DNA from: Conyzicola lurida
Lineage (GTDB): Bacteria > Actinomycetota > Actinomycetes > Actinomycetales > Microbacteriaceae
Length of the DNA stretch: 64,000 nt
Assembly (NCBI RefSeq): GCF_014204935.1
Contig: NZ_JACHMJ010000001.1
Span: 1,488,001-1,552,000, forward strand
Reading direction: 5' to 3'
Shown: one piece after another, positions 38,820 through 46,882 of the stretch
Numbering within the stretch: position 1 is the stretch's first letter
How the letters are laid out: every line of letters begins with the position of its first letter
Position numbers and translations under genes: made by a program
The notes under the pieces: generated by a model
Database searches by the model: none
Told to the model about the DNA's origin: nothing
Seen by the model: only the letters and a program-made list of their open reading frames with translations

Positions 38820-40361
38820 ATGTCCCCCGTGGATATCACACCGGAATTCAATCCGCTCAGGATTCCTTCCGACCGCCGTCTGAACCGCATCGCCGGCCCG
38901 AGCGCCCTCATCATCTTCGGAGTGACGGGTGACCTGTCGCGCAAGAAGCTGATGCCGGCCGTGTACGACCTCGCCAACCGCGGCCTGCTTCCCCCCGGAT
39001 TCGCGCTCGTGGGCTTCGCCCGCCGCGACTGGGAAGACCAGGACTTCGAAAAAGAGGTCTACGAAGCCGTCAAGCAGTACGCGCGCACTCCCTTCGACGA
39101 GGACGTCTGGCGCCAACTGGCGCTGGGCATCCGTTTCGTCCAGGGCGAATTCGACGACGACGCCGCGTTCGAGCGTCTCAAGGAGACCATCGACGAGCTG
39201 GACCGCGACCGCGGAACGATGGGCAACCACGCGTTCTACCTGTCGATCCCGCCGAAGTCCTTCCCGCAGGTGACCGAGCAGCTCCGCCGCTCGGGGCTCG
39301 CGGAGCAGCAGGAGGGCCACTGGCGCCGCGTCGTCATCGAGAAGCCGTTCGGTAGCGACCTCAAGACGGCCCGCGAACTGAACGACGTCGTCGAGTCGGT
39401 CTTCCCGGCCGACAGCGTCTTCCGCATCGACCACTACCTCGGTAAGGAGACGGTGCAGAACATCCTCGCGCTGCGCTTCGCCAACGAGATGTACGAGCCG
39501 ATCTGGAACGCCAACTACATCGACCACGTGCAGATCACGATGGCCGAGGACATCGGCGTCGGCGGCCGTGCCGGCTACTACGACGGCATCGGCGCAGCCC
39601 GCGACGTCATCCAGAACCACCTCCTGCAGCTCCTCGCCCTCACGGCGATGGAGGAGCCCATCTCGTTCAACGCCGCAGACCTGCGCGCCGAGAAGGAGAA
39701 GGTGCTCGCCGCCGTCAAGCTGCCCGCCGACCTGAGCACCTCGACCGCGCGCGGCCAGTACTCCGGCGGTTGGCAGGGCGGCGAAAAGGTCGTCGGCTTC
39801 CTCGACGAAGACGGCATGAACCCCGAGTCGCTCACCGAGACCTTCGCGGCGATCCGCCTCGACATCGGTACGCGCCGCTGGGCCGGTGTGCCGTTCTACC
39901 TCCGTGCCGGCAAGCGCCTCGGCCGCCGCGTCACCGAGATCGCGGTCGTGTTCAAGCGCGCCCCGCAGAACCTGTTCGCGGAGAGCCAGACCGGCACCCT
40001 CGGCCAGAACGCCATCGTGATCCGCGTGCAGCCCGACGAGGGCGTCACGATCCGTTTCGGATCCAAGGTTCCCGGCGCCACCATGCAGGTGCGCGACGTG
40101 ACCATGGACTTCGGCTACGGCCACGCCTTCACCGAGGCCAGCCCCGAGGCATACGAGCGACTCATCCTCGACGTGCTCCTCGGCGACCCGCCGCTGTTCC
40201 CCCGCCACGAAGAGGTCGAACTCTCGTGGAAGATCCTCGACCCGATCGAGGAATTCTGGGAGACGCAGGGCCAGCCCGAACAGTACCGACCGGGCACCTG
40301 GGGCCCGCAGTCCGCCGACGACCTTCTAGCCCGCGACGGCAGAGTATGGAGACGACCATGA
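38820..40361 (+). CDS. zwf: Glucose-6-phosphate 1-dehydrogenase
   Basis: A 513-residue enzyme producing 6-phosphogluconolactone and NADPH. The cofactor motif GVTGDLSRKKLMPA and the active-site peptide RIDHYLGKETVQN are intact. An ideal AAGGAG precedes the ATG. Its stop overlaps the opcA start (ATGA). The gene is third from last in the pentose-phosphate operon. Confidence 0.98.
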   Translation: MSPVDITPEFNPLRIPSDRRLNRIAGPSALIIFGVTGDLSRKKLMPAVYDLANRGLLPPGFALVGFARRDWEDQDFEKEVYEAVKQYARTPFDEDVWRQLALGIRFVQGEFDDDAAFERLKETIDELDRDRGTMGNHAFYLSIPPKSFPQVTEQLRRSGLAEQQEGHWRRVVIEKPFGSDLKTARELNDVVESVFPADSVFRIDHYLGKETVQNILALRFANEMYEPIWNANYIDHVQITMAEDIGVGGRAGYYDGIGAARDVIQNHLLQLLALTAMEEPISFNAADLRAEKEKVLAAVKLPADLSTSTARGQYSGGWQGGEKVVGFLDEDGMNPESLTETFAAIRLDIGTRRWAGVPFYLRAGKRLGRRVTEIAVVFKRAPQNLFAESQTGTLGQNAIVIRVQPDEGVTIRFGSKVPGATMQVRDVTMDFGYGHAFTEASPEAYERLILDVLLGDPPLFPRHEEVELSWKILDPIEEFWETQGQPEQYRPGTWGPQSADDLLARDGRVWRRP

Positions 40362-41362
40362 TTGTCGACCTTCCCGACACAACCACCAGCAAGATCTCGA
40401 AGACCCTCGTCAAGATCCGCGAGGAGGGCGGCGCTGTCGCCCTCGGCCGCGTGCTGACCCTCGTCATCTCGACCAAGCTCGGTGAAGAAGAAGAGGCCAT
40501 CGAGGCCGCCAACGACGCATCGCGCGAACACCCGATGCGCGTCATCGTGATCTCGACCGCCCAGGGCGCGGATGACGCCTCCGACGCCCGCATCGACGCC
40601 CAGATCCGCGTGGGCGGCGACGCCGGCGCGAGCGAGGTCATCGTGGTCAAGGCCTACGGCGACACCGCGAGCGATCAGGAGGGACTCGTCACAGGGCTCC
40701 TCCTGCCCGACGCCCCCGTCGTCGCCTGGTGGCCCGGTGTGGCCCCCGAGAACGCCGCGAAGTCGCCCCTCGGCGTCATCGCCCAGCGTCGCATCACGGA
40801 TGCCGCGTCGAGCTCGAACCCGGCGGCCGCACTCGTGCACGTCGCCGAGACGTACGCGCCCGGCGACACCGACTTCGCTTGGACCCGCCTCACGCTGTGG
40901 CGCGCCCAGCTCGCCGCGGTCCTCGACCAGCCGCCGTACGAGCCGGTCACCGGCGTCACCGTCCACGGTGCTGCCGACTCCCCGTCGACGGTTCTGCTCG
41001 CCGCGTGGCTGCAGCTGCAGCTCAAGATCGACGTGAAGCTCGAGGTGACCAACAAGTCCCACGGCTCCAGCGGAATCCAGGGTGTCGTGCTCGAGCGCGC
41101 CGGCGGAAACATCGAGCTCGAGCGCACGCTCGTGAACGTGGCGACGCTCGTGCAGCCGAACCAGCCGACGCACGACATCTCGCTGCCGCGTCGCAGCCTG
41201 CGCGACTGCCTCTCGGAGGAGCTGCGACGACTCGACCCCGACGATCTGTTCGGCGACGTCATCCAAAGCGGACTCGGCCAGCTCGGCAAGGTCACACCGC
41301 ACCTGCACACGGGTACGATCGCAGCAGTAGAGATCGACGAAAACGGAGTGGCCACCGCGTGA
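40358..41362 (+). CDS. opcA: Glucose-6-phosphate dehydrogenase assembly protein OpcA
   Basis: A 334-residue OpcA-family protein, the redox-responsive or assembly partner of Zwf in actinobacteria and cyanobacteria. The sequence APVVAWWPG and the LRDCLSEELRRLDP tail are typical. The ATG at 40358, with GGAGA upstream and overlapping the zwf stop, is preferred to the ATG four codons earlier and to the much longer open frame. It overlaps pgl by 4 bp (GTGA). Confidence 0.93.
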   Translation: MIVDLPDTTTSKISKTLVKIREEGGAVALGRVLTLVISTKLGEEEEAIEAANDASREHPMRVIVISTAQGADDASDARIDAQIRVGGDAGASEVIVVKAYGDTASDQEGLVTGLLLPDAPVVAWWPGVAPENAAKSPLGVIAQRRITDAASSSNPAAALVHVAETYAPGDTDFAWTRLTLWRAQLAAVLDQPPYEPVTGVTVHGAADSPSTVLLAAWLQLQLKIDVKLEVTNKSHGSSGIQGVVLERAGGNIELERTLVNVATLVQPNQPTHDISLPRRSLRDCLSEELRRLDPDDLFGDVIQSGLGQLGKVTPHLHTGTIAAVEIDENGVATA

Positions 41363-42156
41363 CAGTAGGACGACGGGTGCTCGTGCACCCAGACAAAGCA
41401 GCACTCGCAGCATCGGTAGCCGCGAGATTCATGACGAAGATGGTCGACCTGCTCGACGAGTTCGGTGAAGCAACCGTCGTCCTCACGGGCGGGACCATGG
41501 GCAGCGCGGTGCTGTCCGAGATCAACAACTCGCCGGCACGCGACACGCTCGACTGGTCGCGCGTGCACTTTTGGTGGGGCGACGAGCGTTGGCTCCCCCG
41601 CGGGGACGCCGAGCGCAACGAGACCCAGGCGCGGGAGGCGCTGCTCGACCACCTCGGTCTCGACGGCAGCACCATCCACGCGTTCCCGGCGTCGGACGAG
41701 GGCATCGATCTGGATGCCGCGGCCGAGGTCTACGCTCTGGAACTCGCCGCGCACGCCCACGAGGGTGCGACGCTCCCCCGGTTCGACATCACCTTCCTGG
41801 GTGTCGGCCCCGACGGGCACGTCGCCTCGCTGTTCCCCGAACAGCCCGGTATCCGCGAGACCGAGGCGACGGTGATCGCCGTGCGCAACGCTCCGAAGCC
41901 CCCGCCCGAGCGGCTGTCGCTCACCCTCCCGGTGATCAACTCGTCGACGCGCATCTGGATGGTTCTCGCGGGTGCGGACAAGGCTTCGGCTCTCGGCCTC
42001 AGCCTCGCCGGTGCGAGCATCAACGAGGTGCCCGCGGCCGGCGTCGAAGGACGTCGCAGCACTCTCTACTACGTCGACCGTGAAGCCACGGCCGAGGTTC
42101 CCGAGAACCTCACCGCGACCGAGATCTTCTGGACCGCGGCAGACGCGACCGACTAG
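41359..42156 (+). CDS. pgl: 6-phosphogluconolactonase
   Basis: A 265-residue SOL-type lactonase. LTGGTMG, WGDERWLPRGDAERN, FLGVGPDGHVASLFP and LSLTLPVIN are family motifs. It hydrolyses the Zwf product to 6-phosphogluconate. The GTG at 41359 overlaps the opcA stop. The last 100 bp of the gene are repeated at 42881-42980 as part of the tandem duplication. This copy of the gene is complete. Confidence 0.95.
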   Translation: MTVGRRVLVHPDKAALAASVAARFMTKMVDLLDEFGEATVVLTGGTMGSAVLSEINNSPARDTLDWSRVHFWWGDERWLPRGDAERNETQAREALLDHLGLDGSTIHAFPASDEGIDLDAAAEVYALELAAHAHEGATLPRFDITFLGVGPDGHVASLFPEQPGIRETEATVIAVRNAPKPPPERLSLTLPVINSSTRIWMVLAGADKASALGLSLAGASINEVPAAGVEGRRSTLYYVDREATAEVPENLTATEIFWTAADATD

Positions 42157-42164
42157 ATCCCGCG

Positions 42165-42212
42165 CATACGCAGAAAGGCCGCTACCTTCGGGTAGCGGCC
42201 TTTCTGCGTATG
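42165..42212. terminator. Bidirectional terminator pgl/rbpA, copy 1
   Basis: Perfect inverted repeat with 22-bp arms around a TTCG loop; the core stem is AAAGGCCGCTACC/GGTAGCGGCCTTT. It ends pgl on the plus strand and the rbpA-direction transcript on the minus strand. Confidence 0.93.
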
Positions 42213-42229
42213 TACCTCTGACGCCTGTA

Positions 42230-42597
42230 TCAGGACGAGGGGGCGCTTCCGCGGCGCGCGCGGAGTTGCGAGAGGGCTTCGCCCAAGAGGGACTCGGCTT
42301 CCTCTTCGGTGCGACGTTCCTTCACGTAGGCGAGAGGTGCGTCTTGTAGGGCTCGAGCTTCGCGACGGACGGCGGGTTGTTCTTGTCCCGGCCGGCCGGC
42401 AGACCGCTCTGCGGCGAGTCGATGGTCAGGGGGATCTCGTCGTCGGGCAGGTTAGCCGCGAAGTGGCGGACCGTCTCGTTACCGAGTTCGTCCCAGTAGG
42501 AGATCTGCACGCGCTCGGCGTGATAGCCCCGGTCCTGCTCCCCCATCGGGCCTGCGCCCACACGCGATCCTCGAATCGCACTGCCACCTGAAGCCAC
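42230..42597 (-). pseudogene. rbpA copy 1, frameshifted
   Basis: This equals the intact rbpA at 43054-43419 except for a 2-bp AG insertion near 42333-42338. The frame shifts after KTHL and stops at 42322, replacing the last ~32 residues with SPT. The part lost is the helical C-terminal segment (AYVKERRTEEEAESLLGEAL...), which in RbpA contacts the sigma factor. The remaining product would hold only the N-terminal tail and core. The GTG start (42595-42597) and its AAGGGGG ribosome site are intact. If this is an assembly error, the pseudogene does not exist. Confidence 0.85.
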
Positions 42598-42640
42598 TGT
42601 GCCCCCTTGTTGCCTAGTCGGTATTGCCCGATGAGATTGG

Positions 42641-42886
42641 TTAAGCCCCGTTGAACTTGGTGATGAGGCCAAGCACGACGATCGATGTGATCCAGATCAC
42701 CGCGAGAATGACGGTGATGCGGTTCAGGTTGCGTTCGGCAACGCCGGATGCACCGAGGTTAGACGTCACTCCGCCGCCGAACATGTCGGAGAGACCGCCT
42801 CCGCGTCCACGGTGCAACAGAATGAGGAGCGTCAGCAAGAGACTCGTGATGCCGAGTACAACCTGCAGCGCGACCTGGAGCAGCAC
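42641..42886 (-). CDS. SecG copy 1 (start codon created at duplication junction)
   Basis: An 81-residue SecG, identical to the other copy from residue 3 or 4 on. The duplication removed its own start (VEIL...), but the join supplied an in-frame GTG at 42884-42886, so it reads VLLQVAL. No good ribosome site precedes this GTG and no promoter is copied; expression would need readthrough past the terminator at 42989-43036. Both membrane segments are kept. It may be a functional paralogue, a silent copy, or an assembly artefact. Confidence 0.6.
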   Translation of the reverse strand: MLLQVALQVVLGITSLLLTLLILLHRGRGGGLSDMFGGGVTSNLGASGVAERNLNRITVILAVIWITSIVVLGLITKFNGA

Positions 42887-42980
42887 TCTCTACTACGTCG
42901 ACCGTGAAGCCACGGCCGAGGTTCCCGAGAACCTCACCGCGACCGAGATCTTCTGGACCGCGGCAGACGCGACCGACTAG
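42881..42980 (+). pseudogene. 3' fragment of pgl
   Basis: 100 bp encoding the last 32 residues of 6-phosphogluconolactonase (STLYYVDREATAEVPEN... to the stop), identical to 42057-42156. It has no start or upstream gene and is a by-product of the tandem duplication. Confidence 0.9.
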
Positions 42981-42988
42981 ATCCCGCG

Positions 42989-43036
42989 CATACGCAGAAA
43001 GGCCGCTACCTTCGGGTAGCGGCCTTTCTGCGTATG
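42989..43036. terminator. Bidirectional terminator, copy 2
   Basis: Exact copy of the hairpin at 42165-42212. It lies just past the intact rbpA and should stop the secG-rbpA transcript before it reaches copy 1. Confidence 0.92.
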
Positions 43037-43053
43037 TACCTCTGACGCCTGTA

Positions 43054-43419
43054 TCAGGACGAGGGGGCGCTTCCGCGGCGCGCGCGGAGTTGCGAGAGGG
43101 CTTCGCCCAAGAGGGACTCGGCTTCCTCTTCGGTGCGACGTTCCTTCACGTAGGCGAGGTGCGTCTTGTAGGGCTCGAGCTTCGCGACGGACGGCGGGTT
43201 GTTCTTGTCCCGGCCGGCCGGCAGACCGCTCTGCGGCGAGTCGATGGTCAGGGGGATCTCGTCGTCGGGCAGGTTAGCCGCGAAGTGGCGGACCGTCTCG
43301 TTACCGAGTTCGTCCCAGTAGGAGATCTGCACGCGCTCGGCGTGATAGCCCCGGTCCTGCTCCCCCATCGGGCCTGCGCCCACACGCGATCCTCGAATCG
43401 CACTGCCACCTGAAGCCAC
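43054..43419 (-). CDS. rbpA: RNA polymerase-binding protein RbpA
   Basis: A 121-residue actinobacterial transcription activator that binds RNA polymerase and the principal sigma factor. Its layout fits the family: an N-terminal tail with RGSRVGAG, a small beta-barrel core, a basic linker (KLEPYKTHLAYVKERR) and the C-terminal sigma-interaction helices (EEEAESLLGEALSQLRARR). The GTG at 43417-43419 follows AAGGGGG; the frame is open further upstream, but family similarity starts here. It is 43 bp downstream of secG and ends in a strong terminator. A broken copy lies at 42230-42597. Confidence 0.9.
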   Translation of the reverse strand: MASGGSAIRGSRVGAGPMGEQDRGYHAERVQISYWDELGNETVRHFAANLPDDEIPLTIDSPQSGLPAGRDKNNPPSVAKLEPYKTHLAYVKERRTEEEAESLLGEALSQLRARRGSAPSS

Positions 43420-43462
43420 TGTGCCCCCTTGTTGCCTAGTCGGTATTGCCCGATGAGATTGG

Positions 43463-43711
43463 TTAAGCCCCGTTGAACTTGGTGATGAGGCCAAGCACGA
43501 CGATCGATGTGATCCAGATCACCGCGAGAATGACGGTGATGCGGTTCAGGTTGCGTTCGGCAACGCCGGATGCACCGAGGTTAGACGTCACTCCGCCGCC
43601 GAACATGTCGGAGAGACCGCCTCCGCGTCCACGGTGCAACAGAATGAGGAGCGTCAGCAAGAGACTCGTGATGCCGAGTACAACCTGCAGCGCGACCTGG
43701 AGAATTTCCAC
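43463..43711 (-). CDS. secG: Preprotein translocase subunit SecG
   Basis: An 82-residue SecG with two membrane helices (about 4-25 and 58-78) separated by the conserved LLHRGRGGGLSDMFGG loop. It is part of SecYEG. The GTG at 43709-43711 follows AAAGG. It lies downstream of tpiA in the common gap-pgk-tpiA-secG order, with 114 bp between that include a hairpin and a -10-like TATACT, so it may have its own promoter. Confidence 0.94.
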   Translation of the reverse strand: MEILQVALQVVLGITSLLLTLLILLHRGRGGGLSDMFGGGVTSNLGASGVAERNLNRITVILAVIWITSIVVLGLITKFNGA

Positions 43712-43746
43712 GGGTAACCTTTCGAAGCGGCCGGTGGGCCTCAAGT

Positions 43747-43752
43747 AGTATA
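43747..43752 (-). promoter_or_regulatory. Possible -10 element for secG-rbpA
   Basis: TATACT on the minus strand, 36 bp upstream of the secG start and just after the hairpin. No convincing -35 is seen. It lies outside the duplicated unit, so only the intact secG-rbpA pair would have it. Confidence 0.3.
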
Positions 43753-43758
43753 TCTGCG

Positions 43759-43786
43759 GCGTGGGGACTCGATCGAGCCCCCACGC
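43759..43786 (-). terminator. Hairpin between tpiA and secG
   Basis: 14-bp arms (GCGTGGGGACTCGA and TCGAGCCCCCACGC) with one mismatch and almost no loop. There is no following T-run, so it may be an attenuator, an RNA stability element or a protein site rather than a full terminator. Confidence 0.4.
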
Positions 43787-43825
43787 TTGTCATATTGACG
43801 CAGAATTGTCAGCGAAACAGGCGGA

Positions 43826-44632
43826 TCAGGTGCCGACGTGCTTCTGGAAGCGCGAAATGCTCGCGAATTCGTCGAGATCGAGGCTCGCACCACCGACGAG
43901 GGCGCCGTCGACGTTGGACTCGCGCATGAAGCCCGCGATGTTCACCGCCTTCACGGAACCGCCGTAGAGGATGCGGGTCGCCGCGGCGACGTCCTCGCCG
44001 AGCAGTTCGACCAGCAGTTCGCGCAGCTTGGCGGCGACCTGTTCGGCCTGCTCGGGAGTCGCGGCCTGGCCGGAACCGATGGCCCAGACGGGCTCGTAGG
44101 CGACGACGATGTCGACGGCTCCCGTCACTCCCGCAAGCGCGGCGCGCAGCTGGGCGACGGGGACCGCGCTCGGGCCGTGCTTTTCGAGGTCTTCGGCGGT
44201 CTCGCCGACGCAGATCACGGGAACGAGGTTGTGACGGAGGGCGGCGCCGACCTTGGCGGCGACGACCTCGTCGGTCTCGTTGTGCAGGGTGCGTCGTTCG
44301 GAGTGGCCGATGATGACGTACTGGCAGTCGAGCGCCTTGAGGAAGGCGCCGGAGATCTCGCCGGTGTAGGCACCGGAGTCGTGGGCCGAGAGGTCCTGCG
44401 CGCCGAAGGCGAGATCGAGTTTGTCGGCCGAGATCAGCGTCTGCACGGAGCGCAGATCGGTGAAGGGCGGGAAGACCGCGACCTCGGCCGTGCCGAAGTC
44501 GTGCTGGGCGTCCTTGAGGCTCCACGCGAGCTTCTGGGCGAAGGCGATGGCCTGCAGGTGGTCGAGGTTCATCTTCCAGTTGCCGGCGATGAGGGGCACG
44601 CGCTTGTGCGCCGTGCCGGGTACTACTGCCAT
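43826..44632 (-). CDS. tpiA: Triosephosphate isomerase
   Basis: A 268-residue TIM barrel. Catalytic Lys in GNWKMN, His in IIGHSERR and Glu in AYEPVWAIGSG are all present. It overlaps the pgk end by 10 bp, so the two are cotranslated. Third gene of gap-pgk-tpiA. Confidence 0.97.
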   Translation of the reverse strand: MAVVPGTAHKRVPLIAGNWKMNLDHLQAIAFAQKLAWSLKDAQHDFGTAEVAVFPPFTDLRSVQTLISADKLDLAFGAQDLSAHDSGAYTGEISGAFLKALDCQYVIIGHSERRTLHNETDEVVAAKVGAALRHNLVPVICVGETAEDLEKHGPSAVPVAQLRAALAGVTGAVDIVVAYEPVWAIGSGQAATPEQAEQVAAKLRELLVELLGEDVAAATRILYGGSVKAVNIAGFMRESNVDGALVGGASLDLDEFASISRFQKHVGT

Positions 44633-45837
44633 CCGAGGACCTCCAGTCCAGGCAGACGCTTTCCCTCGAGGAACTCGAGGCTGGCGCCGCCACCGGTTGA
44701 GATGTGACCGAACTGGTCGTCGTCGAAGCCGAGGGCGCGCACGGCGGCGGCGGAGTCGCCACCGCCGACCACGCCGAGGCCGTCGATCTGGGTGAGTGCC
44801 TGCGCTACGGCCTTGGTGCCGGCGGCGAAGGGGGCGAGTTCGAAGACGCCCATGGGGCCGTTCCAGAACACGGTCTTCGACGCGGCGATGACCTCGGCGA
44901 ACCGGGCGGCCGTGTCGGGACCGATGTCGAGGCCGAGGCCCGACGATCCGAACGGGGTGTCTTCGATGCCCGAGGCGGGCGTCGTGACGAATTCGGCGTC
45001 AGCACCGAACTTCGAGGCCACGACGATGTCGGTGGGGACCACGATCTCGACGCCGAGCTTCTCCGCCTCGGCGAGGTAGCCCTTCACGCTTTCGATCTGG
45101 TCCGTTTCGAGCAGGCTCGATCCGACCTTGTAGCCGAGGGCCGCGAGGAAGGTGAAGAGCATGCCGCCGCCGATGAGCAGGGTGTTGACCTTGGGGAGCA
45201 GGGCGCCGATGACGGCGAGCTTGTCCGAGACCTTCGAGCCGCCGAGGACGACCGTGTAGGGCGCCTCGGGGGTACGGGTGAGGCGCTCGAGCACCTCGAG
45301 CTCGGCCTGGATGAGGAGTCCGGCGGCGCTCGGCAACAGGGCGGCGATCTCGAAGACGCTGGCCTGCTTGCGGTGCACGACCCCGAATCCGTCGGACACG
45401 TACGCGTCGGCGAAGGCGGCGAGCTTGCCCGCGAACTCCTCGCGCTCGGTATCGACCTTGCTGGTCTCTCCCGGGTTGAAGCGGAGGTTCTCCAGCAGGA
45501 CGATGTCGCCGTCGGCGAGGCCGGCGACGGCCTCCTCCGCAGCGGAACCGACCGTGTCGCTCGCAAAGACGACGCCCTTGCCGAGGAGCTCGCTCAGTCG
45601 CTGGGCGACCGGAGCGAGGCTGTACTTGGCCTCCGGCGCGCCGTCGGGTCGCCCGAGGTGGGAGACGACGACGACGCGGGCGCCGGAGTTGATCAGGGCG
45701 TTGAGCGTCGGGAGAGAGGCGCGAATGCGGCCGTCGTCCGTGATCTGTCCGTCTTTCAACGGGACGTTCAGATCACAGCGGACGAGCACGTTCTTGCCGC
45801 TCAGGTCACCGAGGCTGTCAATGGTGCGAAGCGACAC
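44623..45837 (-). CDS. pgk: Phosphoglycerate kinase
   Basis: A 404-residue kinase. The substrate-binding RCDLNVPLKDG, HLGRPDG, the ENLRFNPGE stretch and the C-terminal GGGDSAAAVRALG and STGGGASLEFLEG motifs are complete. It lies 22 bp after gap and overlaps tpiA. Confidence 0.97.
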   Translation of the reverse strand: MSLRTIDSLGDLSGKNVLVRCDLNVPLKDGQITDDGRIRASLPTLNALINSGARVVVVSHLGRPDGAPEAKYSLAPVAQRLSELLGKGVVFASDTVGSAAEEAVAGLADGDIVLLENLRFNPGETSKVDTEREEFAGKLAAFADAYVSDGFGVVHRKQASVFEIAALLPSAAGLLIQAELEVLERLTRTPEAPYTVVLGGSKVSDKLAVIGALLPKVNTLLIGGGMLFTFLAALGYKVGSSLLETDQIESVKGYLAEAEKLGVEIVVPTDIVVASKFGADAEFVTTPASGIEDTPFGSSGLGLDIGPDTAARFAEVIAASKTVFWNGPMGVFELAPFAAGTKAVAQALTQIDGLGVVGGGDSAAAVRALGFDDDQFGHISTGGGASLEFLEGKRLPGLEVLGWQ

Positions 45838-45859
45838 GGTCGTTGGTTCCTGGTTCTGA

Positions 45860-46882
<1,023 letters not shown>

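Follow-up and report, generated by a model that had tools for sequence, protein, structure and literature searches.

The assembled chromosome of Conyzicola lurida carries a direct tandem duplication of a segment that holds the 3′ end of pgl, a hairpin, rbpA and secG, present as two abutting head-to-tail copies of 824 and 822 bp that differ from each other by a single GA dinucleotide. The duplication lies within a 64,000-nucleotide stretch (bases 1,488,001–1,552,000) of the single-contig genome, and we refer to the whole of this stretch as the window (Table 1). We put at about even the chances that this is a real, young and illegitimate tandem duplication of 822 bp; the principal rival is an artefact of assembly.

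When the GA is removed from copy 1 it becomes exactly copy 2, with zero substitutions in the alignment. The copies agree in every base over their first 278 bp and over their last 547 bp, a repeat search reports them as two ungapped blocks at spacings of 822 and 824, and blastn gives an identity of 99.758% over 825 bp, a length in which the shared G is counted in both copies; chance is excluded as the origin of an 822/824-bp repeat of this kind. One border of the unit is within the 3′ part of pgl and the other is just past the secG start. At the joint a single base is held in common, the G at 42056 and 42880, and the flanks of the breakpoints, taken for 10 bases to either side, are identical at only 4 of 20 positions; a joint with 1 bp in common rules out recombination between long repeats. 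A comparison of 42057–43702 with the whole 3,643,329-bp contig at E ≤ 0.001 found no second site, and the sole extra match is that of the hairpin to its own opposite strand. A preliminary description of this DNA had proposed two abutting copies of about 823 bp that differ by one 2-bp indel, a join with a 1-bp shared G that did not arise from long repeats, and a unit made up of the pgl end, a terminator, rbpA and secG; all of this agrees with what we find, with the lengths now exact and the terminator described as a terminator-like hairpin.

Table 1. Features of the duplicated region, in coordinates of the window
Feature	Position	Strand	Remarks
pgl (6-phosphogluconolactonase), complete	41359..42156	+	PF01182, 233.1 bits; start and stop checked; last 100 bp within copy 1
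Copy 1 of the duplicated unit	42057..42880	+	824 bp; because of the shared G the borders can slide by 1 bp
Hairpin between convergent pgl and rbpA, copy 1	42164..42213		23-pair stem, 4-nt loop; opposite-strand self-match 92%
rbpA copy 1, frameshifted	42322..42597	-	Extra GA near 42332-42335; 91 aa versus 121; C-terminal part out of frame
secG copy 1, open frame	42641..42886	-	New GTG from the joint; V-L-L-Q-V replaces V-E-I-L-Q-V; native upstream region lost
Novel joint between the copies	42880..42881		1-bp shared G
Copy 2 of the duplicated unit	42881..43702	+	822 bp
3′ fragment of pgl (final 32 codons plus stop)	42882..42980	+	In copy 2
Hairpin, copy 2	42988..43037		Identical to the copy 1 hairpin; between rbpA copy 2 and secG copy 1
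rbpA copy 2, intact, native position	43054..43419	-	121 aa; PF13397, 100.9 bits
secG copy 2, intact	43463..43711	-	PF03840, 59.7 bits; GTG start with AAAGG before it
tpiA, upstream neighbour	43826..44632	-	PF00121, 283.8 bits

Read along the minus strand, the order of features is tpiA, secG, rbpA, hairpin, the end of pgl (antisense), secG, rbpA, hairpin and pgl (antisense). Pfam matches confirm pgl, RbpA, SecG and TIM, and the native layout is kept by pgl, rbpA copy 2, secG copy 2 and tpiA, such that every native gene is still found complete at its original position; the closest named match of the pgl protein is in the MAG RYN_93 (Microbacteriaceae), at 90% identity. A consensus scan reported no promoters in 41900–44000, a result that says little because the scan missed the promoters of the native genes too. 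The two terminator-like sites listed in the same interval are at about the level of shuffled sequence (mean 1.2, sd 1.1) and neither of them is the hairpin, and there is no Rfam match at gathering score within 40000–46000.

The extra GA falls inside rbpA and leaves copy 1 with a truncated RbpA, such that there is one whole rbpA in the pair. The domain match in copy 1 is split over two frames (61.7 bits for positions 2–81 of 105, and 26.1 bits for positions 60–105 in the other frame), and no single frame contains the complete RbpA domain. Comparison with other loci identifies the changed copy, because the reading frame is continuous through the GA site in 107 of 107 rbpA matches (among which four loci were fetched twice, and one, L030, has a stop within the aligned stretch); GAGG is therefore the ancestral sequence and copy 1 the one that departs from it. 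In M. tuberculosis, RbpA is reported to be made up of an N-terminal tail, a core domain, a basic linker and a sigma interaction domain (PMC9695777), and if this layout holds here, the product of copy 1 would be expected to lack its sigma-binding end.

A further full-length rbpA paralogue is located at 1,373,208 of the genome and matches the RbpA family at 113.2 bits, as compared to 100.6 bits for rbpA copy 2. This paralogue (L117:1492-1857) adjoins two ORFs, one ppm-like and one lnt-like, which from their sequences we take to be a polyprenol mannosyltransferase gene (ppm) and an apolipoprotein N-acyltransferase gene (lnt). More than one RbpA match is common: a search of 24 other genomes gave two matches in 18, three in one and a single match in five, hence two or more in 19, and one of the five with a single match is 63% complete. 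With rbpA copy 1 frameshifted and truncated and a full-length rbpA also present elsewhere, the earlier proposal that the event duplicates a key transcription factor does not stand.

The preliminary description had also called for a comparison with sister strains; the relatives compared here, sampled at one genome per species, carry a single copy. Among 299 genomes of the family (C. lurida included, one genome per species, drawn evenly from a larger group), there are two secG matches in C. lurida alone, one in 295 genomes and none in three. Likewise, there is no second rbpA or secG match in any of 109 other loci (105 of them distinct, four having been fetched twice), of which 100 contain all four genes, and the duplication is absent from all five of the same-genus genomes compared. 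The single-copy state across the sampled relatives indicates that the duplication is derived and, with one genome sampled per species, private to C. lurida. We note separately that the distance from pgl to tpiA is 3.1–5.2 kb in three of the loci (L048, L039 and L102), the median for 100 loci being 840 bp, and that extra DNA may have entered there.

Abutting head-to-tail copies, breakpoints without long homology and a single-copy ancestral state are features of a short-joint tandem duplication that are present here. The assembled arrangement may well reflect a real DNA molecule. If so, a break or a template switch would have connected secG, at its 5′ end, with a position within the 3′ end of pgl, and the join would have been made without useful homology, as by Ku/LigD end joining or fork repair. 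The duplication would have come first and the insertion of GA later, with the redundant rbpA copy 1 having begun to decay, and secG copy 1 remaining open but behind the hairpin. The genome encodes Ku (172.5 bits), and joining without homology may thus be available to it. We also count in favor of a real duplication that the copies are identical but for the GA, that the duplication is private on the present sampling, that a smaller case is found in Rathayibacter, and that there is no evident circularisation seam, good base quality and no second repeat of this sort. Counted against it are the nature of the sole difference, an indel that breaks a gene, and a joint at chance level; 80% of random joins in the window have 0–1 bp in common, and the joint therefore bears no mark of any mechanism. 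Mutation accumulation in M. smegmatis is reported to have yielded 856 substitutions as against 207 short indels, and 78.74% of the latter fell within simple repeats (PMC4938668), a spectrum that makes a single indel in a repeat of two units less likely as the first mutation to appear; it could well be a sequencing error.

An assembly artefact, to which we give somewhat less than an even chance, would account for the same observations if two contig or read ends that overlap by about 0.82 kb, or two allelic forms of the stretch, had been placed one after the other and not merged, the true chromosome being single-copy. The extra GA would then stem either from a mistake in whichever end gave rise to copy 1 or from a variant present in the culture. 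Near-identical overlaps of contig ends are described as an assembly fault (PMC4699355, PMC6966772), and the chance-level joint, the partial genes at both unit borders, and a difference between the copies that is of the error type (one 2-bp indel and no substitution) are all consistent with such an origin; the indel moreover breaks rbpA at a site that is in frame in all the matches of other loci, and neither the other 298 family genomes (for secG) nor the 109 other loci show a second copy. Several observations stand against this. The two terminal 15-kb stretches of the contig have no sequence in common; dnaA is at 3,393,031 on the minus strand, and the contig is thus not rotated to dnaA; and the 16S gene of a 16S-23S-5S operon follows 537 bp after the contig start. 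The duplication is therefore not at an evident circularisation seam, and such a seam is not supported as its source, though a seam inside the contig or at another rotation point would escape detection; the position within the contig is also compatible with an internal contig-merge error.

The quality of the surrounding sequence likewise argues against an artefact. There is no N at the joint, and of 61 ORFs of genome G002 that remained after a GC filter, 49 had a match in the window, 47 of them above the threshold of 60% identity (17,361 aa); rbpA is the only split ORF among these 47. No other direct repeats of at least 100 bp within 5 kb of each other occur in the window or in 19 further stretches (380 kb) of the genome. 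The choice put forward in the preliminary description, a young duplication or an assembly error, names the right pair of readings, although the ends of the contig, the position of dnaA and the rrn-adjacent start weaken an error of contig overlap in its circularisation form. An effect of the replication terminus was considered and set aside: a single dif-like site (G000:C1:1363982-1364001) has one mismatch to the 20-mer taken to represent dif (the reversed control has no match), and it is approximately 166 kb from the duplication, too far to say anything, while the GC skew samples are too noisy to place the terminus.

The hairpin between the convergent pgl and rbpA genes is a prominent element of the duplicated unit, and the segment 42150–42225 has a predicted folding energy of −46.9 kcal/mol (z −9.05); it is probably a two-way terminator. 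In other loci the longest perfect stem in the pgl–rbpA gap varies from 4 to 25 bp with a median of 14, and is at least 12 bp in 56 of 96. A perfect tandem duplication of 105 bp with a 1-bp joint is present over the equivalent hairpin in Rathayibacter sp. VKM Ac-2754 (L107:6789-6998), and is also known from the assembly alone. It is conceivable that the hairpin is a fragile site at which forks break or stall, that homology-free end joining then generates duplications that span it, as on at least two occasions in the Microbacteriaceae (822 and 105 bp), and that the frameshift which the redundant rbpA subsequently acquired made most reversions harmful and so locked the C. lurida duplication in. 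We consider this full scenario improbable. The two cases hint that duplications are provoked by the hairpin but do not demonstrate it; in mycobacteria, instability arising from direct and inverted repeats has been described (PMC3519483).

The frequency of close direct repeats of at least 40 bp agrees in direction with duplications provoked by the hairpin, the comparison being a confounded one, with four loci in 98.6 kb of pgl-to-secG interval (L106, L107, L008 and L061) and four loci in 928.8 kb elsewhere (L093, L025, L057 and L081). It was made over 99 loci with pgl, rbpA and secG (101 less the second fetches L005 and L007, with the double L011/L059 kept), in 96 of which pgl and rbpA are less than 1.5 kb apart. 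We give it no weight, because the interval is rich in intergenic DNA, because the L057 repeat lies between secG and tpiA and the L093 repeat just upstream of secG, and because the comparison was made after the Rathayibacter case had been seen. As an observation in its own right, two of the repeats in the pgl-to-secG interval are short tandem arrays, one with a period of about 75 bp in a Naasia MAG (L106:6848-7071) and one with 34- and 51-bp offsets in the same-genus genome G003 (L008:1395-1496).

The duplication could also be a selected one, in which the extra SecG or the truncated RbpA is functional and the second copy has been kept for it. Both secG frames are open, and the joint provides secG copy 1 with a new GTG exactly in phase; its SecG domain is complete in one open frame (PF03840 positions 2–70 of 70, 60.3 bits). 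However, secG copy 1 is without its native upstream region and the AAAGG, with only AGAGA before the new GTG, it is downstream of a very stable hairpin, and a second secG match occurs in none of the 298 further genomes sampled from the family; we regard selection for the extra copy as very unlikely. Tandem copies can be homogenised, and least probable of all is an old duplication held identical by gene conversion, which should have erased the GA difference as well and for which the absence of the duplication from all five same-genus genomes and from the wider set is hard to accommodate.

Tandem duplications are expected to be unstable, and the position of the GA has a predictable influence on how this one would be lost. 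The homology on the two sides of the GA is about 275 bp and about 545 bp respectively (about 820 bp in total), and a collapse keeps the left of copy 1 and the right of copy 2, such that in approximately two of every three collapses the frameshift would persist and only a broken rbpA would be left at this locus. Loss of the duplication would then be slower if this RbpA matters; if it aids fitness, we would expect safe loss to proceed about threefold more slowly than for an unmarked duplication. If the duplication is real, it is seen at an early stage at which one of the duplicated genes has already died, and the dead copy is predicted to bias its loss; if it is an artefact, it illustrates that a single-contig genome can hide an internal false repeat, and annotation of the region would include a pseudogene and a second secG that are both spurious. 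Either way the case is an ordinary one in which nothing points to a new system, and neither outcome would much surprise a specialist.

Among known arrangements, the C. lurida segment resembles the short-joint tandem duplications of bacteria in its near-identical head-to-tail copies, in having no long flanking repeats and in its absence from relatives. It departs from them in being known here from an assembly alone and in the length of its joint, which is 1 bp, whereas a Salmonella survey is described as using joints of at least 11 bp as its cut-off for true duplications (PMC3411829); that survey, by the same account, tested only joints of at least 7 bp, and is therefore a weak guide to joints of 1 bp. 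The direct repeat, the chance-level joint and the indel in one copy are equally those of an unmerged contig-end overlap, from which the arrangement differs in being away from the ends of the contig and from any seam set by rotation to dnaA. The Rathayibacter duplication is only 105 bp long, contains no whole gene, belongs to another genus and has other breakpoints, but it too consists of perfect head-to-tail copies across the hairpin of convergent pgl and rbpA genes, joined at 1 bp.
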